A DNA stretch of 40,964 bases from Pirellula sp. (GTDB lineage Bacteria; Planctomycetota; Planctomycetia; Pirellulales; Pirellulaceae): assembly GCA_021300155.1 (NCBI GenBank), contig JAJTID010000134.1, positions 1 to 40,964 of the forward strand. The letters run 5' to 3'. Under the pieces are notes generated by a model that did no database searches, was not told the DNA's origin, and was given only the letters and a program-made list of their open reading frames with translations. Made by a program: the position numbers and the translations under genes. The first letter of the stretch is position 1. Every line of letters starts with the position of its first letter. Shown one piece after another: positions 4,100-31,399 of this stretch.

Positions 4100-6181
4100 C
4101 TACGTGGTTCCGTCGCTCGCTCCCCAAGAAGAGAGGATCTCTAATCCCTTGGACTCGAGAAGTTTGTAGCATTGTGGCAAATCAAACTGCTTTAGCTGTC
4201 CGTCGACCAGAAAGGCCAAAGGCCACGAGTACGCTTCTGTCTCCGCGATCTCTTGGAACGAGCGAAGCGCGTTCTTTAGCGTTACTTTGGTAACGAATGG
4301 CGATTGCGTTGCCGCCAGAGTCGCGACCAAAGCGCCCCAGCCATTGCCAACTAAATGGACCGATCGATAGCCGAGGCTTGCCAGCCATCGAGTTACTTGC
4401 ATCGCATCCCACACTCGCTGTCCAAGGACAGGTCGATCCAGCATCAAGCCGTGAGCCGATTGGAAATAGTCACTGCCGTAGACACTATTGAAAGTGTCCT
4501 TGCCGCATGTGTCGGGTTGCGATTCGCCTATTCCTCGAACATCGCAAATATAGACGTCTGCCTCGCTGTTGTTCTGAACAAGCGTATGCACCAGTGCATC
4601 ACTTCTTGCTTCCTGATCCGCCGAGCGATGCGAAATGTACAAAATTGCCCGCTCTTTCGAACGCACGGGACGCGATGTCCAGCTTTCTTCAAATAATCCA
4701 GAAGCCAATGCATGAATTCCAGGCTCAGTCTCGACAGCATAAGTGCAGTAGTTCTTCGACGGATACTTGCGATTTCCAACGCCGCGAAGGATACGATAGT
4801 CCGGCGCAGCGGAGTGTTCTGGAAGCCGGAGCAATTCACGGACCTTCTTGATCAACTCCTCAGCGTATCGTGTTTCCCGAGACTTCGCTAACTCTTCCGC
4901 ACGTTGCCGAGTCATCGAGAAGACTGTTCTAGAGCCGATATCTCCAACGGATCCGCGCGGCGTACACCAAAGGGTTTCGTCTTTCTCAAGGATCAATTTT
5001 GGTTCGGCACCGTCTCCTTCGATCCGGGTTTGTTGGTTGAAGAAACGATACATCGCCTCGCGATTTTCCTGGGAGTAACCATGATACGAGCTACCGATAT
5101 GCAAACGGATGTTGTCAGGTTTGCCGAGTAACGTGTAGAGACGCTTAAGACGACCAGATGCTTCTTCGGCACCGCGAGCGTCAAAGTAGTCCTTCTCTTG
5201 AGCCACAATCACAATCGGCTTGGGTGCTAAGGCTGCCAGAAAATCGCAATGATCGAGTCCGAGGCTCAGCGCGCGCGGTGGACACTGTTCTGTATCGGCA
5301 GGCAGTTCGTTCTCGGCATTTCGACGAAAGGTTGTTACGAAACATGCGGGAGCTGCCATGGTCCAGCGTTGCTCAACCGCGCATAGCCAAGTCGTTTGCG
5401 TGCCACCACCGGAGTTCCCAGTAAGTCCGATATGATTCGGATCCACTTCGTCTCGCGAGAGCAAGTAGTCCAATGCTCGAATCCCGTCCCATGCGAACCA
5501 GCTTCCTAGAAACTCTCCAACCAAGTATTGTTGGTTACCCATTTGGATATGTTCGTTCACTCCAGGCGAGAACTTGGACTTTGAGTCTGGGGTCGAGTAT
5601 TGAAGTCGTTCTCCTTGTCCGATGGGATCATAGATCAGAACAACATATCCCTGCCTCGCGAGCCCTTGAGCGAAAAACTGATAAGCCTCTGCGGCCTTTC
5701 CATTCGCCGAATGGCCACAGGTTCCGACAACTCCTGGGCATTTTCCGGTCCGTTTGGGAACGTACAAATTCGCAGTCACGAGAAAACCTGGGCGGCTTTC
5801 AAAGATGACATTTTCGATTCGATATGTGTCTCGTTCTTCGACTCGAGTGGTCCTTGCGAGAAGCGGAGTCTTTTCAGGCTCCGGTCCGAAACACAATCGC
5901 GCTCTCTGTTGACAGGACTTCACGTAGGCCATCGCATCTTGTTCTGTACGAAGAGCATCGCGAAGTGCATTCCCACGACGTTCCGCCTCGCGAACTTGTT
6001 GAACAAGCCATTCTTGAGTCATTCGTGGAAATCGATGGAGCGGAGCCAATGTGTCGGCGGTTCGAGTCTTGACATCTTGTCCAGGTGCAAATGAACAGGT
6101 TACCCCACTCATACCAAACGCGGCAGACAAGCCAGCTCCCTCAAGGAAATACCTTCTCGACGAAAAACGTGATGATTTCAT
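4100..6181 (-). CDS. Tat-exported alpha/beta hydrolase (acetyl xylan esterase/dienelactone hydrolase type), two hydrolase domains
   Basis: The 693-residue product starts with a twin-arginine signal (SSRRYFLEGAG, residues 7-17), so it is probably exported folded. The first hydrolase domain (about 110-380) shows an oxyanion region GTCGHSANG, the strand YDPIGQGE, a nucleophile elbow GNSGGG with Ser257, and a late HIGSSYHGYS stretch that could hold the catalytic histidine. This pattern fits the AXE1-like esterases common in planctomycetes. A second alpha/beta domain occupies the C-terminal third, but its elbow reads VGNGWGA, with glycine in place of the serine, so it is probably not catalytic. 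The substrate, perhaps an acetylated polysaccharide, is inferred only from the family. Confidence 0.8.
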   Translation of the reverse strand: MKSSRFSSRRYFLEGAGLSAAFGMSGVTCSFAPGQDVKTRTADTLAPLHRFPRMTQEWLVQQVREAERRGNALRDALRTEQDAMAYVKSCQQRARLCFGPEPEKTPLLARTTRVEERDTYRIENVIFESRPGFLVTANLYVPKRTGKCPGVVGTCGHSANGKAAEAYQFFAQGLARQGYVVLIYDPIGQGERLQYSTPDSKSKFSPGVNEHIQMGNQQYLVGEFLGSWFAWDGIRALDYLLSRDEVDPNHIGLTGNSGGGTQTTWLCAVEQRWTMAAPACFVTTFRRNAENELPADTEQCPPRALSLGLDHCDFLAALAPKPIVIVAQEKDYFDARGAEEASGRLKRLYTLLGKPDNIRLHIGSSYHGYSQENREAMYRFFNQQTRIEGDGAEPKLILEKDETLWCTPRGSVGDIGSRTVFSMTRQRAEELAKSRETRYAEELIKKVRELLRLPEHSAAPDYRILRGVGNRKYPSKNYCTYAVETEPGIHALASGLFEESWTSRPVRSKERAILYISHRSADQEARSDALVHTLVQNNSEADVYICDVRGIGESQPDTCGKDTFNSVYGSDYFQSAHGLMLDRPVLGQRVWDAMQVTRWLASLGYRSVHLVGNGWGALVATLAATQSPFVTKVTLKNALRSFQEIAETEAYSWPLAFLVDGQLKQFDLPQCYKLLESKGLEILSSWGASDGTT

Positions 6182-6353
6182 GACTTGATAGTCCTTATGG
6201 AGTGTCCTTTAGGTTTGTTCGCTTTCCAATCAGCGATCGATTATACTCTCGTGAACCAACTCCATTGGAGCCGAGGCGTTTTCATGTGCGGTTCCAAGGA
6301 ATGGTCCTCTACATCCTACCTGTTTTTCCCACCACGTTTCCGCTCTATTATCC

Positions 6354-21287: not shown

Positions 21288-24200
21288 CTACGAACCGGAC
21301 GCACGATCACGCAGTTTTTCGTACAAGCCGAGTTGATTGAGCATGATGCGTTTTAGGCCTTCTCGCATCTCAGGCGAATTCAATGCCTTAGTGCTCAAGT
21401 CGGCTTGTACATCCATCGCGTCGATGATGGCATTCATGATTTCGCTGGTCAGGTCGGGCGAGTTCGCAAATTGCTCTTTCGAATTGCTCGTCGCCTGTTT
21501 TTGAAGGACAGTCGATTCAAGTACTTTCTCATTCAACGTCGTTGCATGGGACAACTGATCTCCATCAGTCGTGTCCGTGCCGTAGATCTCATTCAGTTTG
21601 GAGATGATCTCCGTCAGATACGCTTTCTGCTTCTCTCTCACCGTTCCGCTTCCGATCTCGGTCAGCGGGTTAAGTTTAGGAGCGTCTTTGTCGGATAACC
21701 CCAGATTCCTCTCGCCCCGATGACTTAGCTTGTGGTGGGTCAACGTCACATCGGATAGATCGACACCGTCTCGTTCTCGACCAAATTTCAGCAGCTTCAC
21801 CAAGTACTTAAAGAAGATCGCTCGCTTCTCGAAATCGGTGTTGCCGTAGTCAAAGATCTGCGACAGGAACGTATACGCTCGCAGGTAAGTCGAGACATCT
21901 GAGCTAAACAGTACCAAGGCATCCATCGTGTCTTTCGCCGACTGTGCTGCCTTGTCGTCTTTGCTCGCAACCGCGGCGGCATGAGCTTCCTTGGCAGCGG
22001 CAAACTTCTTCAAGAGTCGATCCGCGACGGGAGTGATCGCTGCTTCTAGCTGTTTCTGTTTCGAGTTCGGATCGAGAACAACGTTCACGACACGATCGAT
22101 TTCATTCTCGTCATAGTAGCCTAGCGCATCCAGTTTCGTCCGCAAGGTGAGTATGATCTCCCGGTCATTCACATCGGAAAGCTGCGCTGTTGTAAAGTAA
22201 GTCTTGAACGCGTCGAGGACTTCGCTGGGTTCATTCACAAAATCTAGGACATACGTGTTGTCTTTGCCTGGATAGCAACGATTGAGTCGAGACAAGGTCT
22301 GTACCGCCTGAATTCCCGCCAACCGTTTATCGACGTACATCCCGCAAAGCAGTGGTTGATCAAACCCTGTCTGGAATTTGTTCGCGACCAACAGGATCTG
22401 AAACATGTCATCTTTGAAGGCTTCTGCGATGTTTCGGCCTTTCAAGTCAGGGTTCAACATCGAGCTGGTCTCTTTGAACGGATCCGGTCCTGATTCCTTG
22501 TCGTTCACTTCGCCTGAAAAAGCAACCAACGTTCGCAATGGGTAGCCTTTTTCCTGGATGTACTTGTTGATGGCCAGTTGCCAGCGAACGGCCTCGACCC
22601 GACTGCTAGTGACGACCATTGCCCTAGCTTTGCCGTTCAATAACGGAGCGATGGTTTCGCGGAAATGTTCGACTACAATTTGGACCTTCTGGGCGATGTT
22701 GTAAGGGTGAAGCCTAACCCAGTTCATCAGCCCTTTCATGGCGGTGCTGCGTTCGACTTCCGTATCATTCAGTTCCTTTCCTGCGTTGGCCAGCTTGAAC
22801 GCGAGTTTGTACGGCGTGTAGTTCTTCAGCACATCCAGGATGAAACCTTCCTCGATCGCTTGACGCATCGAATACACATGGAATGGTTCAGGTAGATTGC
22901 TCGGTCCTGCGGGCTGAGTCGGATCCGGAAGACGGCCAAACAACTCCAGCGTCTTCGCCTTGGGGGTCGCGGTGAAGGCTACGTACGTGATACCTGTATC
23001 CGCAGCCCGCGAAGCCATCTGTGTTGCGAGAACGTCCTCTGTGCTAATCGCCCCACCGTCTTCAAGTTCCTTTTGTTCCTCAGCGGATAGGACCAACTTC
23101 AGTTTCGAAGCAGCTTCGCCAGTCTGAGAGCTGTGTGCCTCGTCGGCTATCACTGCGAATGTTTTTCCTTCGGTCGCAGCTAAGTCCCGAACCTTTTCTA
23201 GAGCTTTAGGAAACGTCTGAATCGTACAAACGACAATCTTCTTGTCACCTGACAACGCTTCGACCAACTCCGCACTCTTACTCCCTTGGTCGCCCTTGAT
23301 CGTGGCTACAACACCCGCAGTTCGCTCGAAGCTGTCGATGGCATCCTGAAGCTGACCATCGATTACACGTCGATCTGAGACTACCAAGACTGTGTCAAAG
23401 ACTTTCTTGTTGATTGCATCATGCAAGTCCGCTAAGAAATGAGCCGACCACGCGATAGAGTTCGTTTTGCCAGAACCAGCAGAGTGCTGAATCAAGTATT
23501 TTCCTCCAGTCCCTTCCGATAGAACTGCTCGTTGCAGTTTACGTGTAGCATCGAGTTGATGGTAACGAGGAAAGATCAGCTTGGTGATCTGCTTCTTACT
23601 ATCCTTCACCGCAACGAGATACCTCCCAAGAATCTCCAGCCATCCGTCGCGCTCCCAAACCTGCTCCCAGAGATACGAAGTTCGATATCCAGCGGGATTG
23701 AGCGGATTGCCTGCTGCTCCATTGTCACCCATATCGAACGGTAGAAAGTCTGTGGCTAAGCCAGCGAGTTTCGTCGTCATTTTCACCCGACTGCTGCTGA
23801 CAGCGAAATGAACCAATGCACCTGATGGAAACTTCAACAGTGGTTCGGAAGCGTGTCCTTTTGGTTGCGGATCGCGATCCTTTTTGTATTGATAGACCGC
23901 ATCATCGATGCTTTGAGTATTGTCGGTCTTAATCTCGATGGTGGCAACAGGGATACCGTTGAGGAACAGAACCAAGTCGATGCTATTCTCATTGAGAAGC
24001 GAGTAACGCACTTGGCGAACGACTCGCAGTCGATTGGCAGCGTATCGCTGCATGATGTCCGGATTCATCGCCAACGCTGGCTTGAACTGGGCCATCCGCA
24101 GTGGCTTTTGCAAACCCAACACATCAAACCCGTTTCGGATCACATGCAGCGTACCGCTCTGATTGAGCGAGTCGCGGAGCCTTTTGAGCAGTGTTGCTTC

Positions 24201-24398
24201 AGCGGCAACGCCATGATTTTTCGTCATGGTCTTCCACGCATCATGGGCGGTTTGCTGAACCCAGGCAATCACATCCGAAGGAAAAAGAGCCAATTGGCGA
24301 TCGTAGTTTGAGGCATCTTTCTCCGCGTACAGCCAACCGTGAGCCGCGAGGTGATCGCAGATGTCGTTTTCAAATTCGATTTCGTTGTGAAGAGCCAT
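21288..24398 (-). CDS. hsdR: Type I restriction enzyme R subunit HsdR
   Basis: The 1036-residue protein has an N-terminal PD-(D/E)xK nuclease core (IDLVLFLNGIPVATIEIK: Asp141, Glu155, Lys157), then an SF2 motor: Walker A QHSAGSGKTNS (Lys311), DEAH box VIADEAHSSQTG (419-422), TYVAFTATPKAKT (motif III) and QTLSRLNRCYPGK (motif VI). It translocates DNA and cuts it when the HsdM/HsdS complex finds an unmodified target. All key residues are present, so it should be active. An AAAGGT ribosome site lies before the ATG. A 317-base gap separates it from the upstream genes of the locus, so it may have its own promoter. Confidence 0.95.
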   Translation of the reverse strand: MALHNEIEFENDICDHLAAHGWLYAEKDASNYDRQLALFPSDVIAWVQQTAHDAWKTMTKNHGVAAEATLLKRLRDSLNQSGTLHVIRNGFDVLGLQKPLRMAQFKPALAMNPDIMQRYAANRLRVVRQVRYSLLNENSIDLVLFLNGIPVATIEIKTDNTQSIDDAVYQYKKDRDPQPKGHASEPLLKFPSGALVHFAVSSSRVKMTTKLAGLATDFLPFDMGDNGAAGNPLNPAGYRTSYLWEQVWERDGWLEILGRYLVAVKDSKKQITKLIFPRYHQLDATRKLQRAVLSEGTGGKYLIQHSAGSGKTNSIAWSAHFLADLHDAINKKVFDTVLVVSDRRVIDGQLQDAIDSFERTAGVVATIKGDQGSKSAELVEALSGDKKIVVCTIQTFPKALEKVRDLAATEGKTFAVIADEAHSSQTGEAASKLKLVLSAEEQKELEDGGAISTEDVLATQMASRAADTGITYVAFTATPKAKTLELFGRLPDPTQPAGPSNLPEPFHVYSMRQAIEEGFILDVLKNYTPYKLAFKLANAGKELNDTEVERSTAMKGLMNWVRLHPYNIAQKVQIVVEHFRETIAPLLNGKARAMVVTSSRVEAVRWQLAINKYIQEKGYPLRTLVAFSGEVNDKESGPDPFKETSSMLNPDLKGRNIAEAFKDDMFQILLVANKFQTGFDQPLLCGMYVDKRLAGIQAVQTLSRLNRCYPGKDNTYVLDFVNEPSEVLDAFKTYFTTAQLSDVNDREIILTLRTKLDALGYYDENEIDRVVNVVLDPNSKQKQLEAAITPVADRLLKKFAAAKEAHAAAVASKDDKAAQSAKDTMDALVLFSSDVSTYLRAYTFLSQIFDYGNTDFEKRAIFFKYLVKLLKFGRERDGVDLSDVTLTHHKLSHRGERNLGLSDKDAPKLNPLTEIGSGTVREKQKAYLTEIISKLNEIYGTDTTDGDQLSHATTLNEKVLESTVLQKQATSNSKEQFANSPDLTSEIMNAIIDAMDVQADLSTKALNSPEMREGLKRIMLNQLGLYEKLRDRASGS

Positions 24399-24715: not shown

Positions 24716-26182
24716 CTACGCCCAAAACGGCAAGTATTTCGCGTGCTTCCTGCCTTGATCCGCGGTAAGGGGGCGTATTAGCCCGTCCTCCAGTGTGTCG
24801 CTGATAATCCGGCTTGCTGTGGCCCGATTCTGCTCCTCAATGCCAAACCGCTCTCTCAAAGTCGTGTTCGTCATTGGTTCCCGCTGAACGAAACGCAGTG
24901 CCGCGTGAAGGTAACATGCCCGAACTTTCTCCGATCGATCCATGTCGTTCAACGGCTTGTGTGCGAACAAAACCGACCGAGTAGAGTCATTGGGAGTTTC
25001 AAAGCTTGGGGCAGGTAACTGATAAAACTCCGTTTCGAACACCACCTTGTCCACACCGCTACCACGTTCTTCGCAAACACCAATGCGACGCATGAACGAT
25101 GCTAGCGACTCGTTCCGAGATCGTGGTGGGGAATCGAGGAATCGTTCCGTTTTGACCAACGGGAGGCCGGGATTGGTTATCTCCATTCGGTCAGAAAAAA
25201 TCTCGACCATCGGTCCCGTGCCAGTTACTGAAAAATCCTGGTGAATCAAAGCATTCGCAACAAGCTCTCGAACGGCGAGTTCCGGGTACATCGGAACCTC
25301 TTTTCGCAGCGCCTGCCCTATAACCTCATTTCGTGGCAGCAGTTCATTGATGAATCGGATCAGTCCTTCAAAGCCAATCGCATAACCTTTGTCGCCTCGC
25401 TGTTCTTTGACGGTTCTGATGCGGCCTTTACCGCCGTAGACAATGACACGCACTGACTTTCGATCAAGCGGTTTGAAATTGTTCAGCGATCGAGCAAATA
25501 GAATCGCGCCTAAATTGGTGATGTTCCAGGCCCCAGCATCATCCGACACGATCATGTCATCGTCTTTAAATGCATCTAAAATGGCGTCGACATTATCGGG
25601 GAGTGCACGCTGTAGTAATTGGAAATATGCCGGATAATCTAGCAGCGATATAACATCGCTACTATCAACATGTTCTTTTGCGAGCCGACGTTCAAAAGGC
25701 GTCGTGTCGAAGATTCGCCAAAGGGCACGTTCTAGTTCAGGATGATCCTTCAGTTTCTGCCGATAAGAGCCAACTCGAACATACTCAGTGCCGGCGAATT
25801 GAGTAGGCTTCGTATGAGCTCTTGGAATCTCAAGGATGACCAGCGGTTTACCGTCGTACTCGATAGAGTGGAATTTGAAATGCAATCGCGGACTCAACAA
25901 ACGAACAAGCCAATTTTCGAGGTCTTCGTTGCCCTGCTTTGCGGTTCCGGGCCGGAACGATGTACCCAGCACTTCGTGACTGCCATTCTCGATGCCCCAA
26001 AGCAGATAGGCGTTGGCTTTTCCCTCCAGCGCCGCCGCATTACTAAGCGCCGAAAGGTATTCACCAATGTCCTGAGGGTCAGCGATGTTGTGTTTGAATT
26101 CGAGCCACGGGGTCTCGACGGGCAGTTTGCGCAATTCGGTGACCAAACCTCGATGGTACTTGGCGGTTGATTCGTTACTCAT
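24716..26182 (-). CDS. AlbA_2 (Schlafen-like) / HATPase / winged-helix putative regulator of the type I RM locus
   Basis: The 488-residue product belongs to the COG2865-type proteins. Residues about 20-140 form an AlbA_2 domain (PWLEFKHN, EYLSALSNAAAL, NAYLLWGIENG). Residues about 225-345 contain an HSP90-like ATPase fragment (AVRELVANALIHQDFS, then EIFSDRMEITNPG). The C-terminus looks like a winged helix (LRERFGIEEQNRATASRIISDTLEDGLI). Such genes are frequent between hsdS and hsdR and are usually annotated as transcriptional regulators or RecG-like; a DNA-helicase motif is not present. Its ATG overlaps the hsdS stop by four bases, so it is translationally coupled. Confidence 0.85.
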   Translation of the reverse strand: MSNESTAKYHRGLVTELRKLPVETPWLEFKHNIADPQDIGEYLSALSNAAALEGKANAYLLWGIENGSHEVLGTSFRPGTAKQGNEDLENWLVRLLSPRLHFKFHSIEYDGKPLVILEIPRAHTKPTQFAGTEYVRVGSYRQKLKDHPELERALWRIFDTTPFERRLAKEHVDSSDVISLLDYPAYFQLLQRALPDNVDAILDAFKDDDMIVSDDAGAWNITNLGAILFARSLNNFKPLDRKSVRVIVYGGKGRIRTVKEQRGDKGYAIGFEGLIRFINELLPRNEVIGQALRKEVPMYPELAVRELVANALIHQDFSVTGTGPMVEIFSDRMEITNPGLPLVKTERFLDSPPRSRNESLASFMRRIGVCEERGSGVDKVVFETEFYQLPAPSFETPNDSTRSVLFAHKPLNDMDRSEKVRACYLHAALRFVQREPMTNTTLRERFGIEEQNRATASRIISDTLEDGLIRPLTADQGRKHAKYLPFWA

Positions 26183-27552
26183 TCTTTACCCTTCGATGCA
26201 AAACCACGAACGTCGATCTTGCCAGTGACGGCGGCGGAGATGAGGGCGGTGCGGCGCTCTTGAAGAAGTTCGATTGCTCGTTCGGCTTCCGCAAGTAGTC
26301 GGTTTGACACCGCAACTGTGCTATCCAAATAATCGATTATCTCACGTTGCTCCTCGATTGCAGGAAACGCAAACTTGGCAGCAACCAGAAGCGACGAACT
26401 AATGATCGACTGGTTTGCAAGTTTATGGCTAAACACGTTTAAGTGGTTTCGATATGCAGTGCTGCAAAGCGTGTAAAACAAGTATCGTTTTTCGATAAAG
26501 TCAGGGTTCTCGCGAAGAATCACGACGTTTTGATTTGGTACGGCTCCAGCGAGCGAGTCTGGAATAATGCCAACTTGACCGACGGCAGATTCTGTAACCT
26601 TAGGGTCGCTCCCGACCATGCTGATGACAATGTCACCCGCCATCAGCACGACACGTTCATAAGTCGCCACAACTTCTTGGGGCAAAAATATTTCCGGTGG
26701 CGATATGGTCTTGTTCTTGATATTGCCAGCGCGGATGAATGGGACACCATCATCTTGAAAATCTGACGAACTGAACCCAAATCCATTCACTGTTGAAGCG
26801 TAATGCTTAAGGCAAGCTATCTCCCAATGCTGTGGCACATCTCCGAGCCATTGGATGCCGGAGGGTTTCATGGGGGCGTTGGGGTTCAGGCCTTTGGTGA
26901 CCGCGTGACTGATGACCGCCTGCCGCTTTTCCTTCAGCAACTCAATCAAACGACGCTGCTCCGACACCAAACCGTCGATCTTCGACGTTTCTACATCGAG
27001 GAACGACGCGATCGCACGTTGCTCGTTGAGGGGAGGGATGGCAGTTGCAAAGTTCCTCACGAAGTCACCGGGGACACGTTTTTGTCCCCCCGCTCCATAC
27101 ATAGTCGATTCGCCGATGTGGCGGAAGTGCGACGACATGAACAGCCAATGGAGATAGCCGCTGGTTGTGTGTTTGGGGCGAGGGCGGACCACGATCAACT
27201 CGGTTGTTCCGAATCCAATTCCATTCAGAAGTCCTCGCATGATCGCCCCTTTGCCATTCTCAAAACAGGGCGTGATCTTTGCGAGAGTTACATCGCCTTC
27301 ACGGAAGTATGTGTAGCCGTTTTCCACCGCACCGATTGAGCGTGTGTGTTCAAGTTGGATTGTGCCATCGTCGCCAACCGCTTCCATTGGCAGGAACGAA
27401 ACTGATAATTCCCGATCTAAGTCGCTGACTTCCGACTTTGAAGGATTTAGTTCAGCGACGCGTCTCAATCGAACGACGCTCCAGTGCAATGGCACTTCAC
27501 CTAGCCACTCAATACCGCTGTCCGTTGTATCGGAGTACTTCGCTAAACTCAT
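26179..27552 (-). CDS. hsdS: Type I restriction enzyme specificity subunit HsdS
   Basis: The 457-residue protein has the twofold layout of HsdS. Each half starts with a similar stretch (GIEWLGEVPLHW near 13 and GIQWLGDVPQHW near 228), followed by a variable target-recognition domain and a conserved coiled-coil helix (ERAI-type ASFLDVETSKIDGLVSEQRR and the later IIDYLDSTVAVSNRLLAEAER). The two recognition domains differ from each other, which implies a bipartite asymmetric DNA target that cannot be predicted here. The start ATG overlaps the stop of the upstream hsdM-tail frame (ATGA). Confidence 0.93.
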   Translation of the reverse strand: MSLAKYSDTTDSGIEWLGEVPLHWSVVRLRRVAELNPSKSEVSDLDRELSVSFLPMEAVGDDGTIQLEHTRSIGAVENGYTYFREGDVTLAKITPCFENGKGAIMRGLLNGIGFGTTELIVVRPRPKHTTSGYLHWLFMSSHFRHIGESTMYGAGGQKRVPGDFVRNFATAIPPLNEQRAIASFLDVETSKIDGLVSEQRRLIELLKEKRQAVISHAVTKGLNPNAPMKPSGIQWLGDVPQHWEIACLKHYASTVNGFGFSSSDFQDDGVPFIRAGNIKNKTISPPEIFLPQEVVATYERVVLMAGDIVISMVGSDPKVTESAVGQVGIIPDSLAGAVPNQNVVILRENPDFIEKRYLFYTLCSTAYRNHLNVFSHKLANQSIISSSLLVAAKFAFPAIEEQREIIDYLDSTVAVSNRLLAEAERAIELLQERRTALISAAVTGKIDVRGFASKGKE

Positions 27553-27933
27553 TGCGACAGTTCCCCGATCATCTTAACGATCCGATCCGTCACCCCTTTC
27601 AATTCCTTGTCGATCTCATCCAACTCGCGAGGCGGTTTGAAGACGTAGAAATGACGGTTGAACGGGATTTCGTAGCCGATCTTGGTCTTGTCGTGGTCGA
27701 TCCAAGCGTCAGGGACGTGCGGCACAACTTCTCGCTGGAAATGGGCTTCGATATCTTCGCCCAGTGGAACATCCTCGCTGTTTCGCAGTTTCGAGTCGGG
27801 CTTGGGTAGGCCTATCCGTTTGCCTTTCGTTTCCTTGACGACTTTGCCCTTTTCATCAAGCTCCGGTCGCTCGACCGTGACTGTCTGATAGCCCAAATCG
27901 GTGTTCTTGAAAATGCGGCTGATCGGTAATCCT

Positions 27934-27960
27934 GTGAGCGGAAAGGCGCTAGCCGCTGAT
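27934..27960 (+). repeat. REP palindrome, copy 1
   Basis: This 27-base unit starts GTGAGCGG and has an AGCGG/CCGCT stem around AAAGGCGCTAG. It differs from copies 3 and 4 at a few positions and abuts the duplicated hsdM tail. Confidence 0.8.
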
Positions 27961-28005
27961 ATGGCCTGAACGGTGAGCAATGCCCGAAACGGACACCATC
28001 CATAT

Positions 28006-28030
28006 CCGCCGCTAGCGCGTTGCGGCTCAC
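28006..28030 (-). repeat. REP palindrome, copy 2 (inverted)
   Basis: Read on the minus strand it starts GTGAGCCGC and ends GCGGCGG. Relative to copy 3 both stem arms change (GCGGC/GCCGC to GCCGC/GCGGC), so base pairing is kept by compensating substitutions. Confidence 0.75.
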
Positions 28031-28050
28031 CATCGATTGTCCATACGACC

Positions 28051-28077
28051 GTGAGCGGCAAGGCGCTAGCCGCCGGT
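28051..28077 (+). repeat. REP palindrome, copy 3 (RAYT 3' side)
   Basis: This 27-base unit starts GTGAGCGGCAAGG and ends CTAGCCGCCGGT, with a GCGGC/GCCGC stem. It is identical, in inverted orientation, to copy 4 on the other side of the RAYT gene. Confidence 0.88.
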
Positions 28078-28147
28078 TTTCTCAGCAACACAACGGCGGC
28101 TAACGTCTTGTCGCTCACAAATGCAGATTGATATCGTGGGAGGTGCA

Positions 28148-28675
28148 TTATTTTCCTCGATCCATTCGGTCCTGTGCTTCAGTAACATAAAGGACGACTC
28201 TTTCGAGATCATCATCCCCATCGATGAATTCGATGTCCCCGCCCTTGGTCCAAACTTTTTCGTTGGTGATGGGATTGGGCATGCGGCGCAATGCAGTAGT
28301 GCCATTCGCTTTGAATTGGTCACGAACACGTTTTGGCGGTGCCGCCGCAGTTACCACCACGTGGGCGTGATTCGATCGGACGCATACGGCATGAATATGC
28401 CAACCGCGAATGGTAGCATGTTCGCGAATTGTTTTTTCGACCGCTTCTCGCTGAGACTCGTTAAGTACGATTGGCTTTTCTTTCATCCGGTCGCGACACC
28501 ACTCCTCCAGCTTCGGTTGTGGTAGCTGGTCTCCGGCTTTCCATTTACGCCAGCCACGACTGTCGCCGGGGAGCCAGGCACCATACGTTGTCCATGTGAT
28601 AAACAGTGTGATGGGCTCATTGAGTTCGGAAGTACCGGCGGCTAGCGCCTTGCCGCTCACGTTCTGGTCACTCAT
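28148..28675 (-). CDS. REP-associated tyrosine transposase (RAYT) inside the type I RM operon
   Basis: The 175-residue product has the Y1/HUH fold landmarks: LFITWTTYGAWLPGD near 24-38, HIHAVCVRSNHAHVVVT with HAH at 103-105, and a candidate catalytic tyrosine in ERVVLYVTEAQDR (Tyr163). It nicks single-stranded REP hairpins. The 27-base REP copies 3 and 4 flank it as perfect inverted repeats. Copy 4 overlaps the first codons (NVSGKALAAGT), so the natural start may be downstream, for example near ELNEPITLF. The annotated ATG overlaps the DUF1016 stop (ATGA) and its own stop overlaps the next frame (TAATG). It appears intact and is a later insertion into the hsd locus. Confidence 0.88.
   Translation of the reverse strand: MSDQNVSGKALAAGTSELNEPITLFITWTTYGAWLPGDSRGWRKWKAGDQLPQPKLEEWCRDRMKEKPIVLNESQREAVEKTIREHATIRGWHIHAVCVRSNHAHVVVTAAAPPKRVRDQFKANGTTALRRMPNPITNEKVWTKGGDIEFIDGDDDLERVVLYVTEAQDRMDRGK
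28634..28660 (-). repeat. REP palindrome, copy 4 (RAYT 5' side)
   Basis: Read on the minus strand it is identical over 27 bases to copy 3 at 28051-28077. It lies within the 5' end of the RAYT frame, so part of the predicted N-terminus is REP-encoded. Confidence 0.88.
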
Positions 28676-29100
28676 TGCGAAAACTCCCCGATCATGACGG
28701 CTATGGGGTCCGTCACCCGCTCCAATTCGTCATCGATCTTCAGCAACTCGACAAAATGCGACCAGCTCAATAAGTGCGACGTTGTCGCACCTTTTGGATA
28801 GGCAAGGTAAAACTGGCGAATGCGAATCACACCGCTTCGACTCAATGCCTTGCCATGGCGAAGCGTGAGATCATGGCTCAATCGGTTCAAAAGCCCCTTT
28901 CCGTATTCCGCCCGAGCCTTCCCGCCCTGTTCGTATTCGATAATGTGCTGACCAATTTGCCAGTTGGTAGTCGTCAAGTGTTCATTAACAACCTGATAAG
29001 CTCTGCGTTGCCCTTCGACGTAGGTTGAGGAAATCCGCTCCAACAGTTGTTGGTACTGCGGATCGTCTGAAAGGTTGAGAAGCTCGCGCGATTCGCTCAT
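28672..29100 (-). CDS. Truncated DUF1016 (YhcG-like) protein fused to an HsdM-type tail
   Basis: Residues about 1-122 match the N-terminal domain of DUF1016/YhcG proteins: NWQIGQHIIEYEQGG, RAEYGKGLLNRLSHDLT, GVIRIRQFYLAYP and LSWSHFVELLKI. The family is normally about 330 residues with a C-terminal PD-(D/E)xK nuclease domain; this is entirely absent. Instead the last 20 or so residues (DELERVTDPIAVMIGEFSQ) resemble the HsdM C-terminus (AELKGVTDRIVQMIGELSQ). The joint lies at AGATCGATG, a 9-base match with hsdM. The ATG overlaps the hsdM stop and the stop overlaps the RAYT ATG, each as ATGA. DUF1016 genes often sit between hsdM and hsdS. This copy is probably non-functional as a nuclease. Confidence 0.8.
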   Translation of the reverse strand: MSESRELLNLSDDPQYQQLLERISSTYVEGQRRAYQVVNEHLTTTNWQIGQHIIEYEQGGKARAEYGKGLLNRLSHDLTLRHGKALSRSGVIRIRQFYLAYPKGATTSHLLSWSHFVELLKIDDELERVTDPIAVMIGEFSQ

Positions 29101-30896
29101 TGTGACAACTCTCCGATCATTTGCACGATGCGATCCGTTACGCCTTTGAGTTCCGCATCGATCTCATCCAACTCGCGGGGAGGTTTGAACACGTAGAAAT
29201 GACGGTTGAACGGGATTTCGTAGCCGATCTTCGTCTTTTCTTGGTCGATCCAAGCATCAGGGACGTGAGGGATGACTTCTCGCTGGAAATATGCCTCGAT
29301 GTTATCGCCCAACGGAACGTCTTCGCTGTCTCGCAGTTTGGCATCGGGTTTGGGCAATCCTTTGCGTTTGCCCTTTGTTTCTTTAACAACCTTACCCTTT
29401 GCATCAAGCTCAGGTCGCTCGACAGTAATCGTTTGGTAGCCAAAGTCGGTGTTCTTGAAGATGCGGCTGATGGGTACGCCTTTGGTTTGCCCCTTAACCC
29501 CGGCAGTTTTTTGTTTGACAGGCTTGCCAGTTTCGGGATCGACGTAGACTTCTTTTGCGTCGCCAAAGAGACGGGTGATCTCGGCAATGTGATCGTCGCT
29601 CAATTCCTTGCGTTTGCTTCCCAAGCTCTTGCGCATCTTCTGCCACATGTTGCTGGCGTCGATCAACTGCACTTTGCCCTTGCGATGTTCGGGCTTGCGA
29701 TTGGTTACGATCCAAATGTAAGTACTGATGCCAGTGTTGTAGAACATGTCCGTCGGCAACCCAATGATGGCTTCAAGTAGATCATTCTCTAACACGCACC
29801 GACGAATCTCGCTTTCCCCGCTCCCAGCACTGCCCGTGAACAAGGGCGAGCCATTGAGGACGATGCCAAAGCGACTGCCACCGTCTTTCGTCGGTCGCAT
29901 CTTGGAGATCAAGTGCATCAGGAACAACAGCGACCCATCGCTAACTCGGGGCAGACCGGGACCGAACCGTCCGTTGAAGCCCTGCTGTTCATGCTCCTTC
30001 TTGATTTCCTTCTCGATCTTTTTCCATTCGACGCCGAACGGTGGATTGGACAGCATGTAATCGAACTGCTTGCCCGGTAGACCATCCTCGGACAACGTGT
30101 TGCCGTGGATGATGTTGCTGATGTCCTGTCCTTTGATGAGCATATCTGCTTTGCAGATCGCATAGGACTCGCCATTGAGTTCCTGACCGAACATCACCAG
30201 CCGAGCATCAGGGTTCTGACTGGAGAGATGATCCTCTGCTACGGAAAGCATGCCACCAGTTCCAGCAGTCGGATCGTACAGCGAGCGAACGATACCGGGC
30301 TTGGTCAAGGCGTCGTCGTCTTCGATGAAGAGCAGATTGACCATCAACCGGATGACTTCTCGGGGGGTGAAATGTTCCCCAGCGGTTTCATTGGAGAGCT
30401 CGGCGAACTTGCGTATCAGTTCCTCGAAGACATGCCCCATCTGTTCGTTGCTGACTACTTCCGGATGTAGATCGATGTTGGCAAACTTTTCGGTTACCAG
30501 ATAAAGCAGATTGGCTTTAGCGAGTCGCTGAACTTGGGTATGGAAGTCAAAGCATTCGAAGATGTCTCGCACTGCAGGAGAAAAGGCCTGGATGTACGAG
30601 TACATGTTCTCGGCGATGTTGTCTTGATCGCCCATCAACTTCTTGATGTCCAGCGGCGACGTGTTGTAGAACAGCAAGCCTGCCTTCTTCAGCAGGAACG
30701 GCTCGGGGTTGATCCCGGCTGCATCCCGCTTCTCCTTTTCTTTCAGCACCGCGTCTTTGGTAGATTCGAGAACGCAGTCTAATCGACGTAGGACGGTGAA
30801 AGGAAGAATGACCTTGCCGTATTCGGACTGCTTGTAATCGCCGCGAAGAAGGTCTGCGACGGACCAAATAAAGGAAGAAAGGTTCTGTTGACTCAT
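29097..30896 (-). CDS. hsdM: Type I restriction enzyme methyltransferase subunit HsdM
   Basis: The start is placed at ATG 30896 (MSQQNLSSFIW), giving 599 residues; the frame is open to 30962 but the extra 22 residues do not look like HsdM. An N-terminal helical domain is followed by the N6-adenine methyltransferase core: GEHFTPREVIRLM near 173, DPTAGTGGM (SAM-binding motif I, about 208-216) and NPPF (motif IV, 284-287). With HsdS it methylates adenines in the target; with HsdR it makes the restriction complex. The C-terminal 127 residues are repeated downstream. An 11-base tandem repeat containing TTGACA lies about 70 bases upstream. Confidence 0.95.
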   Translation of the reverse strand: MSQQNLSSFIWSVADLLRGDYKQSEYGKVILPFTVLRRLDCVLESTKDAVLKEKEKRDAAGINPEPFLLKKAGLLFYNTSPLDIKKLMGDQDNIAENMYSYIQAFSPAVRDIFECFDFHTQVQRLAKANLLYLVTEKFANIDLHPEVVSNEQMGHVFEELIRKFAELSNETAGEHFTPREVIRLMVNLLFIEDDDALTKPGIVRSLYDPTAGTGGMLSVAEDHLSSQNPDARLVMFGQELNGESYAICKADMLIKGQDISNIIHGNTLSEDGLPGKQFDYMLSNPPFGVEWKKIEKEIKKEHEQQGFNGRFGPGLPRVSDGSLLFLMHLISKMRPTKDGGSRFGIVLNGSPLFTGSAGSGESEIRRCVLENDLLEAIIGLPTDMFYNTGISTYIWIVTNRKPEHRKGKVQLIDASNMWQKMRKSLGSKRKELSDDHIAEITRLFGDAKEVYVDPETGKPVKQKTAGVKGQTKGVPISRIFKNTDFGYQTITVERPELDAKGKVVKETKGKRKGLPKPDAKLRDSEDVPLGDNIEAYFQREVIPHVPDAWIDQEKTKIGYEIPFNRHFYVFKPPRELDEIDAELKGVTDRIVQMIGELSQ

Positions 30897-31399
30897 TGGC
30901 GTTATGACTGTTCGTGTAGCGATAATCCTGAACAGTCTACCAAAACCCGTATCCTTCACCACCGAGGTGTCAATTAGGTGTCAATTCCCTCTAATCTTTC
31001 GAATCGACTGCTTGAAAGTCTGCAATTTTCATACTCACTCGGCAGGCAGGAGTTGAGCGACGGGTAGCATTACGTTGTCGGAACGCTGGAGGGCGTTCCA
31101 TGCGTTGCTGGATCATACGACATGGGTGGCATAGCAGTCGACATCGCTTGCCGGCCAGATTACGTGGAGCAACATGCAATCGAAATGATGCTGGAATTCA
31201 TCGAGGACGAACTAACCGAAGCGGACCGCATCGTCATTGTGCCGATCCTCAAATCGAGAGTGAGAAGCGACTGGTGGGCATCCTGCGAAGGTATGGATAC
31301 CGTCGATCCGATAGCCTGGGTAACCATATCCTAACGGTCAGTTTATGGCTCGAAGGTTGGCGGCGTTGGCCTAATCCGACGCAAGAAACAGACTACCGC
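30897..31399. other. Region upstream of hsdM, no firm gene
   Basis: AGGTGTCAATT occurs twice in tandem (30965-30986); on the minus strand each unit reads as TTGACA, a possible -35 element for hsdM, although a good -10 is not seen. A 7-base hairpin GGAACGC/GCGTTCC lies at 31080-31099. A plus-strand frame at 31122-31334 (70 codons, acidic, MGGIAVDIACRPDYVEQH...) could be a small gene or remnant but has no recognisable motif. Confidence 0.45.
31122..31334 (+). CDS. Possible small hypothetical ORF or gene remnant
   Basis: This 70-codon frame encodes an acidic peptide with a DYVEQHAIEMMLEFIEDE helix-like segment and a strand-like RIVIVPILKSRV. Third codon positions are fairly GC-rich, as in neighbouring genes. 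No ribosome site or known family is evident, and the end is abrupt, so it may be a fragment. Confidence 0.22.
   Translation: MGGIAVDIACRPDYVEQHAIEMMLEFIEDELTEADRIVIVPILKSRVRSDWWASCEGMDTVDPIAWVTIS

Follow-up and report, generated by a model that had tools for sequence, protein, structure and literature searches.

The window analysed here is a stretch of 40,964 nucleotides (nt) from Pirellula sp. (family Pirellulaceae; assembly GCA_021300155.1, contig JAJTID010000134.1), whose minus strand carries a Type I restriction-modification operon in which Pfam searches recovered hsdM, hsdS and hsdR together. The genes follow one another in the order hsdM, a DUF1016_N fragment, RAYT (a Y1 transposase gene associated with repetitive extragenic palindrome, REP, sequences), an open reading frame (ORF) of 199 amino acids (aa) referred to as ORF199, hsdS, an AlbA/Schlafen-type gene and hsdR. 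Stop/start overlaps of 4 nt (ATGA) or 1 nt (TAATG) join hsdM to DUF1016, DUF1016 to RAYT, RAYT to ORF199, ORF199 to hsdS, and hsdS to the AlbA gene. Within this chain the 3' end of hsdM, here called the tail, occurs three times, each time ahead of the next start codon. An earlier note, made from the DNA letters, had pointed this out, and alignment, peptide shuffling and a repeat search all recovered the pattern.

Tail 1, the end of hsdM itself, aligns with tail 3 without gaps, with 317 of 384 nt and 113 of 128 codons identical, stop included (dN 0.061, dS 1.17); the difference of about 12% of residues given earlier for the long copy corresponds to 15 of 128. Tail 2 is the end of the DUF1016 fragment (28672-28749), which aligns with the last 26 hsdM codons, stop included, at a score reached by none of 2000 peptide shuffles. 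A general repeat search also returned an 81-nt triple repeat, with 73% and 80% identity to the reference copy. All three tails finish with GGAGA or GGGGA, a serine codon and CAATGA, which overlaps the next ATG, and the GGRGA motif that the note had placed upstream of the ATGA overlap is therefore present in every end. The repeats thus stood, while the 128-codon copy proved not to be free-standing: it forms the C-terminal part of ORF199, which starts at the RAYT stop codon and in which the PADLOC MTase_I match is confined to the C-terminal part. The DUF1016 fragment is likewise a fusion. It tracks the type of DUF1016 gene found at locus L004 as far as AAGATCGATGACGAATTGGAGCG and then switches to an hsdM-type end, its last 46 nt (28672-28717) being hsdM-like and not DUF1016-like when compared with the L004 gene. 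The fusion is in frame and lies at a stretch where DUF1016 (KIDDELER) resembles the hsdM tail (EIDKELKG); because the two sequences are alike at that point, a short-homology deletion is its likely origin. Leftovers of a complete second hsdM at another site of the host genome were also considered and rejected, since a search of the 260 contigs with the 127-aa tail (E <= 0.001) returned only tail 1 and tail 3, although copies of the length of tail 2 would escape it.

Copies of hsdM tails were found at ten junctions in nine genomes, the window included, where they end short ORFs that we call bridges; counting the fused tail 2 of the window brings the copies to eleven. The nine genomes comprise six of the window's family, one of another family of the same order and two Verrucomicrobia metagenome-assembled genomes (MAGs). 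The genes ahead of the copies are DUF1016/YhcG, RAYT or AlbA-type genes or have no family above the search cut-off. The expectation of the earlier note that other insertions would be bounded by tail copies was borne out by eight further genomes with copies behind hsdM and different inserted genes, and the two outcomes it had named as telling against it, namely no other genome with tails at insertions and a tail 3 derived from an unrelated hsdM, did not occur.

A Pirellula MAG labelled Pirellulaceae (L003, genome G447 by contig coordinates) contains hsdM, RAYT, a 175-aa ORF with REPs and a 127-codon tail, DUF1016/YhcG, a 32-codon ORF of which the last ~13 codons are tail-like, and hsdS. Planctomycetes bacterium CA13 (L075, G361) has a frameshifted hsdM, RAYT, a REP array, 15 tail codons plus stop, and hsdS. 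The degraded locus L130 (G483) retains an hsdM end, RAYT, a 62-aa ORF with ~29 tail codons and an hsdS remnant, while L139 (G160) has RAYT, a 94-aa ORF with 21 tail codons, a small gene and hsdS/hsdR remnants, with no hsdM body found in its 16-kb stretch; the small gene behind this bridge is the gene that directly follows hsdM in L008. At L004 (G420, by spacing), hsdM and DUF1016/YhcG are followed by a 42-codon ORF with ~30 tail codons and no REP, and then by hsdS. The Verrucomicrobia MAG at L028 has hsdM, an AlbA/HATPase gene and a 41-codon ORF that is nearly all tail, the last ~90 of its 122 nt being identical to its own hsdM, and a Verrucomicrobiaceae MAG (L078) has hsdM followed by an 84-aa ORF that ends in ~15 tail codons. 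The genome from another family of the window's order (L108/L170, G099) has a distant hsdM, a 343-aa gene, an 18-codon ORF that is nearly all tail, a HARE-HTH/Mrr gene and hsdS, and by eye its copied codons differ from those of its hsdM by five synonymous changes.

Integrase families were absent from a Pfam scan of the inserted or adjoining genes (DUF1016 and RAYT of the window, DUF1016 of L003 and L004, AlbA and DUF1016 of L028, the 343-aa and HARE/Mrr genes of L170, the 119-aa gene of L114 and the 84-aa gene of L078), and no Pfam family exceeded the cut-off for the 343-aa, 119-aa and 84-aa proteins. The 343-aa L170 protein had neither a Pfam nor a PADLOC family; a gene of 342/343 aa lies behind hsdM in two families of the order (L170, 2840-3871; L197, 1313-2341), once with a tail bridge and once without. 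In L114 (1881-2240) and L008 (9803-10162), the 119-aa gene is joined to hsdM on one side and hsdS on the other by 4-nt overlaps, and no tail copy is present; the gene also occurs in L139 after 2300, and the L114 copy had no PADLOC match. By eye, a second kind of short repeat, of the AAGTGGCTTCTGGAAAAGCCGC type, lies beside the bridge of L028 (4833-4960) and again ahead of hsdS (6050-6250).

The reading frames of the bridges were examined at all ten junctions. In nine of them the tail frame is open back to a start codon within -6 to +4 nt of the upstream stop, and this start overlaps the upstream stop by 1 or 4 nt in eight bridges and lies 2 nt beyond it in the remaining one. For the seven bridges with linkers long enough to be shuffled, the product of the shuffle fractions was 6e-7, a figure that, given the partial relatedness of the loci, is not a p-value. 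At eight of ten junctions the bridge stop and the start of an identified next gene, or of its remnant, overlap, the next gene being further off in L028 and L078. Tail lengths range from 127 codons down to 14-17 with the stop, and eight of the ten bridges contain just 14-40 tail codons; the end with its GGRGA site and stop is always kept.

To gain insight into the source of the copies, a tree of 22 tails was examined. Tail 3 of the window stands beside, not inside, a group formed by tail 1 and the two L003 tails (support 100/98), and the four together are supported at 94/85, below the star mark of the program. In approximately unbiased (AU) tests, sisterhood was rejected for tails 1 and 3 of the window (p 0.004) and for the tail 3s of the window and L003 (p 0.019), and not rejected for the two tails of L003 (p 0.19) or for the pair of tail 1s (p 0.49). 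In the window, tail 3 is from a related but not sister hsdM allele. Since both the tail 1/tail 3 and the tail 3/tail 3 sisterhoods are rejected, alleles have moved, and a simple in-place tandem duplication in the window is ruled out by the same tree. The divergence between tails 1 and 3 may merely reflect different hsdM alleles. Thus, of the suggestion that the copy was old or came from a related hsd locus, the second part agrees with the grouping of tail 3 with the same hsdM lineage and the first, its age, was not borne out. Between the window and L003, the body of hsdM is mostly 94-97% identical, the first three alignment windows 86-91% and the 3' third 78-92%; lower identity over the 3' third is as expected if the end of hsdM recombines. 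Furthermore, over their final 51 nt the L004 and L130 bridges share 50 of 51 positions even though different genes precede them (DUF1016 and RAYT, respectively), and the closest tail to the L139 bridge is that of L008 (43/51, one base ahead of the second at 42/51), the same small gene following both. By these likenesses, the bridge seems to move together with the gene that follows it.

Of 63 near-invariant positions, five are changed in tail 3 of the window and none in tail 1 or in either L003 tail; the 87 other tails have a mean of 0.74 changes, with three or more in 5 of 87. The window's tail 3 thus appears to drift at the protein level, an argument for a role of the RNA or of the translation end and not of the peptide. 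In a separate observation, the CA13 hsdM carries its frameshift within the tail (L075, 9476-9852), where the last 37 tail codons are 97% identical to those of the window at the protein level and those before them 70%, a mosaic end.

REP-like sequences are a second feature of the insert. Five such repeats lie within and behind the RAYT of the window, the last of them one base from the beginning of tail 3, and both the first codons of RAYT and ORF199 read through them. A 21-nt REP pattern with up to 3 mismatches occurred at 5 sites in the window genome (6.46 Mb), all at 27934-28660, and no dispersed REPs were found across the genome in this search. With up to 2 mismatches, the four genomes in which a RAYT relative had no hsd gene within the 1.5 kb examined had 92 (G454), 115 (G359), 87 (G196) and 71 (G255) sites, and four other genomes with an hsd-bound RAYT had 9 (G447), 6 (G483), 17 (G361) and 10 (G160); G420, with a DUF1016 bridge and no RAYT at its hsd locus, had 91. 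The five best matches to the window RAYT among 241 genomes all lie in hsd loci or in remnants of them. It may be that the hsd-bound RAYT no longer moves or has been domesticated, and RAYTs may favour hsd loci. A RAYT relative with 62% identity also occurs between hsdS and hsdR in a Planctomycetaceae MAG (L015, 11402-11881), with REP-like sequence just upstream of hsdS. The hsdM of CA13 contains a REP pair in the linker between its catalytic domain and tail (L075, 9400-9475), and the linker peptides RKAITSGS (L003) and RKAIAAGS (L004) look, by eye, like REP-encoded peptides; REPs may be an origin of the variable HsdM linker.

Features of the hsd operon in the window. Coordinates refer to the whole stretch; (-) is the coding strand of the operon.
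Feature	Coordinates	Strand	Basis and remarks
hsdM	29097..30962	(-)	PF02384 N6_Mtase and PF12161 HsdM_N; ATG common to relatives at 30896
Tail 1, last 128 hsdM codons, stop included	29097..29480	(-)	ATGA overlap with DUF1016 fragment
DUF1016_N fragment, in-frame fusion to hsdM-type tail end	28672..29100	(-)	PF17761, E 3.4e-27; PADLOC PDC-S02
Tail 2, last 14 codons plus stop of hsdM-type end, past the fusion point	28672..28717	(-)	ATGA overlap with RAYT
RAYT, REP-associated Y1 transposase gene	28148..28675	(-)	PF01797, E 7.3e-06; first codons read through REP
REP-like repeat within start of RAYT ORF	28636..28660	(-)	Repeat search
REP-like repeat behind RAYT	28094..28118	(-)	Repeat search
REP-like repeat, opposite orientation	28051..28075	(+)	Repeat search
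Degenerate REP-like repeat	28006..28030	(-)	Repeat search and pattern search of genome
REP-like repeat, one base from tail 3	27934..27956	(+)	Repeat search and pattern search of genome
ORF199, bridge ORF, 199 aa	27549..28148	(-)	TAATG at RAYT stop, through REPs into tail 3, ATGA overlap with hsdS
Tail 3, 128-codon copy of hsdM 3' end, stop included	27549..27932	(-)	Alignment and repeat search
hsdS	26179..27552	(-)	PF01420; PADLOC
AlbA/Schlafen-type accessory gene	24716..26182	(-)	Pfam; ATGA overlap with hsdS
hsdR	21288..24398	(-)	PF04313/PF18766/PF22679

We hold with moderate confidence that the hsdM-tail copies are bridges that hand the ribosome on, so that genes behind insertions stay translated. 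A 4-nt overlap with the hsdM stop is the usual start of the gene behind hsdM, which would be translated by the ribosome that has just finished hsdM, with the GGRGA site within the last hsdM codons presumably helping it to restart. DNA of related hsd loci would recombine in between hsdM and the next gene, and an insertion at this place would sever hsdS from hsdM unless the inserted gene came with a ribosome site of its own or with another hand-over; the tail copies would be the latter. Under selection for coupling, the joints that survived would be those in which the incoming downstream gene brought at least 14-17 end codons (stop included) of its own hsdM. Read in phase from a start at the stop codon of the inserted gene, the tail copy would keep the chain of hsdM, inserted gene, bridge and hsdS unbroken, and the hsdM end would remain intact. 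In the window, at least two events may have occurred: a deletion running into a tail would have removed the nuclease half of the DUF1016 gene, and a RAYT/REP block with tail 3 behind it would have entered beside hsdS. In EcoKI, hsdM and hsdS are called translationally coupled in a passage of PMC3510504. According to reporter experiments in PMC10666635, coupling requires that genes overlap or lie very close together, the final 15 nt of the upstream gene were enough for two E. coli gene pairs, and stop-start distances of ~20 nt almost completely abolished coupling in the six gene pairs tested. Predicted ribosome-site strength, compared between 42 of the 51 direct junctions and 28 of the 32 tail-less gap loci (L028 and L078 being classed as tail-less), gave p 0.039, which lends the bridges weak support.

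The frequency of the copies was estimated with controls. In a search with each locus's own hsdM end, a copy ending within 4 nt of the hsdM stop was present in 8 of 101 rows, equal to 7 loci since L097 and L075 are one genome, with scores from 21.2 to 294; the highest of 303 control scores was 18.8 and the weakest counted copy, L075, scored 21.2. Three of 104 rows were too short for this search, and some genomes appear twice (L075 and L097, L008 and L091). Only L170 stood out at the hsdM stop among 43 loci with longer flanks, a set that mostly repeats genomes of the 101 rows and in which the L171 row is meaningless, as no hsdM was found. L130 and L139 were found by separate tail and RAYT searches and not by the own-tail scan, and four further tail-like matches, L131-L134, stand outside the counts. 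Two candidates were not counted: L026, with 14 nt of hsdM end exactly at the hsdS start, was within the control range, and L063 matched at 27 of 63 positions at hsdS against 23 controls of at most 24 but had no local match there.

Several observations weigh against ribosome hand-over by tail copies. Among 36 loci with a gap between hsdM and hsdS, a copy was present at hsdS in 4 and elsewhere in 2, leaving 30 without one; the 36 include one genome counted twice (L008 and L091), a locus whose gap spans no more than 38 nt (L021) and two loci for which the hsdS start used was not a true one (L105 and L110). Three of the four copies at hsdS were found by an ungapped test and that of L075 by inspection and the own-tail search, the hsdM end and hsdS start of L075 having been set by hand; the ungapped test misses this copy (20/63, with the hsdM end 3 nt shorter). 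A further 39 loci, chosen by hand from the match list, had no copy at the hsdM stop. Matches off the hsdM stop also exceeded the control maxima: L072 (20.8) and L067 (19.0) against 18.8, L177 (15.6) against 15.4 in the 43-locus set, and L263 (29.8), L243 (19.8), L258 (19.2), L276 (19.2, upstream), L254 (18.4) and L266 (17.4) against 17.2 in the 39-locus set. The matches of L263, L243 and L272 were set aside on inspection as repeats or chance. Because off-stop matches can exceed the control maximum, anchoring at the hsdM stop carries part of the argument for L075, the weakest case. L075 also fails the frame test: its frame is not traceable across a stretch of N, and its hsdM carries a frameshift. 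The loci L130 and L139 are degraded, and the copies of L028 and L078 do not adjoin hsdS. Operons in general often have overlapping genes, REP arrays may be prone to keep one frame open, and a comparison of predicted ribosome sites at 5 tail-borne and 28 tail-less hsdS starts found them not significantly weaker (p 0.12). From the own-tail search and the gap-locus counts, the tail bridge is recurrent but uncommon, and the counts rule it out as a general rule for every hsdM-hsdS insertion. The portable tail module proposed in the earlier note is accordingly supported in part: tail-bounded insertions occur elsewhere, the coupling that it would provide is putative, and it is not a general device.

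The tails could instead be functionless leftovers of insertion into the hsdM 3' end, with target duplication or recombination scars, their overlaps being carried over from the junction of the original hsdM. Such events do leave direct repeats at the flanks, the largely identical L028 copy is as a recent in-place duplication predicts, and the two tails of L003 may be sisters (p 0.19). The two long copies of the window, however, are not sisters (p 0.004), and leftovers need not place the bridge start at the inserted gene's stop with an open linker, as in 9 of 10 cases, nor keep the same end in copies of very different length; we regard this account as unlikely. Still less probable, to the point of being hard to credit, is that ORF199 and its kin are working peptides, free HsdM C-terminal domains that bind HsdS either to work with it or to compete with full-length HsdM. 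The HsdM C-terminus must lie near the HsdS N-terminus in EcoKI, as stated in a portion of PMC3510504, dN/dS between tails is low, and tail 3 of L003 is unchanged at the near-invariant positions. A low dN/dS is nevertheless expected anyway if the copy came recently from a working hsdM, eight of ten bridges hold too little of the tail to fit readily with such a domain (14-40 codons), and tail 3 of the window has five changes at positions where tail 1 has none, a load of three or more being found in only 5 of 87 other tails.

A further possibility concerns the route and is compatible with bridge function: the long tail copies could have arisen by crossover of REPs that follow RAYT with REPs in a donor hsdM linker. 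The long copy begins at a REP in both the window and L003, the CA13 hsdM has its REP pair at the same linker position, and the REPs of the window genome are found at this locus only. As L004, L028, L078 and L170 have tail copies without a RAYT match at the site, REPs are ruled out as the general cause, and we offer REP-REP crossover tentatively, as a conceivable route for some bridges. Ribosome hand-over by the tail copies remains the account that we favour.

Several known systems resemble parts of this arrangement. In insertion with long target duplication, reportedly described by Nobusato in 2000, the insert likewise lies between direct repeats of the target. Such repeats are present on both sides of the window insert; here they are not sisters (p 0.004; in L003 they may be, p 0.19), and the downstream copy has acquired a start codon at the stop of the inserted gene. 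Termination-reinitiation at ATGA/TAATG, as treated in portions of PMC6728339 and PMC10666635, is alike in the 4- or 1-nt overlaps, here running from hsdM to the AlbA gene, and in that a short upstream 3' end can suffice; it differs in that one gene's 3' end is here copied behind an inserted gene, with putative coupling there. Nearest in print among the ideas met is the proposal, in a section of PMC3510504, that an HsdM-tail duplication inside HsdS led toward Type IB enzymes. It shares with our case, besides EcoKI coupling, the hsdM tail and hsdS start as a unit and a tail copied within an hsd operon; there the tail is fused into HsdS, whereas here it forms a separate short ORF before the next gene. 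Domain movement (DOMO) in hsdS, as outlined in part of PMC3077401, also uses repeats of the hsd locus as recombination joints, within hsdS and not at the hsdM end with whole-gene cargo. The REPtron, as characterised in an excerpt of PMC3733652, has a Y1 transposase gene between REP-like inverted repeats, and a Y1_Tnp gene (PF01797) flanked by REPs is present in the window; the difference is that the REP pattern occurs at one locus of the host genome only, in place of many genomic copies, and that RAYT is overlapped into the hsd operon. Among the matches listed, no hsdM-tail bridge was described in the titles or abstract openings of open-licence PMC literature on long target duplication, genes between hsdM and hsdS, RAYT with restriction-modification, intervening genes, or coupling with insertion.

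Tightly coupled operons should resist insertions, because gaps of ~20 nt nearly abolish coupling in the gene pairs covered by the cited part of PMC10666635. Bridge ORFs made from the upstream gene's own end would explain in a simple way how accessory defence genes come into the interior of coupled operons. More speculatively, and with considerable doubt, the hsdM end may be a plug-in joint that serves both as a homology arm for the exchange of cassettes (DUF1016/YhcG nuclease, RAYT, AlbA-type and others) and as a ribosome hand-over, so that operons could gain middle genes without losing coupled translation. Bridge ORFs are short and are likely overlooked by annotation pipelines, and they can be searched for in any operon.

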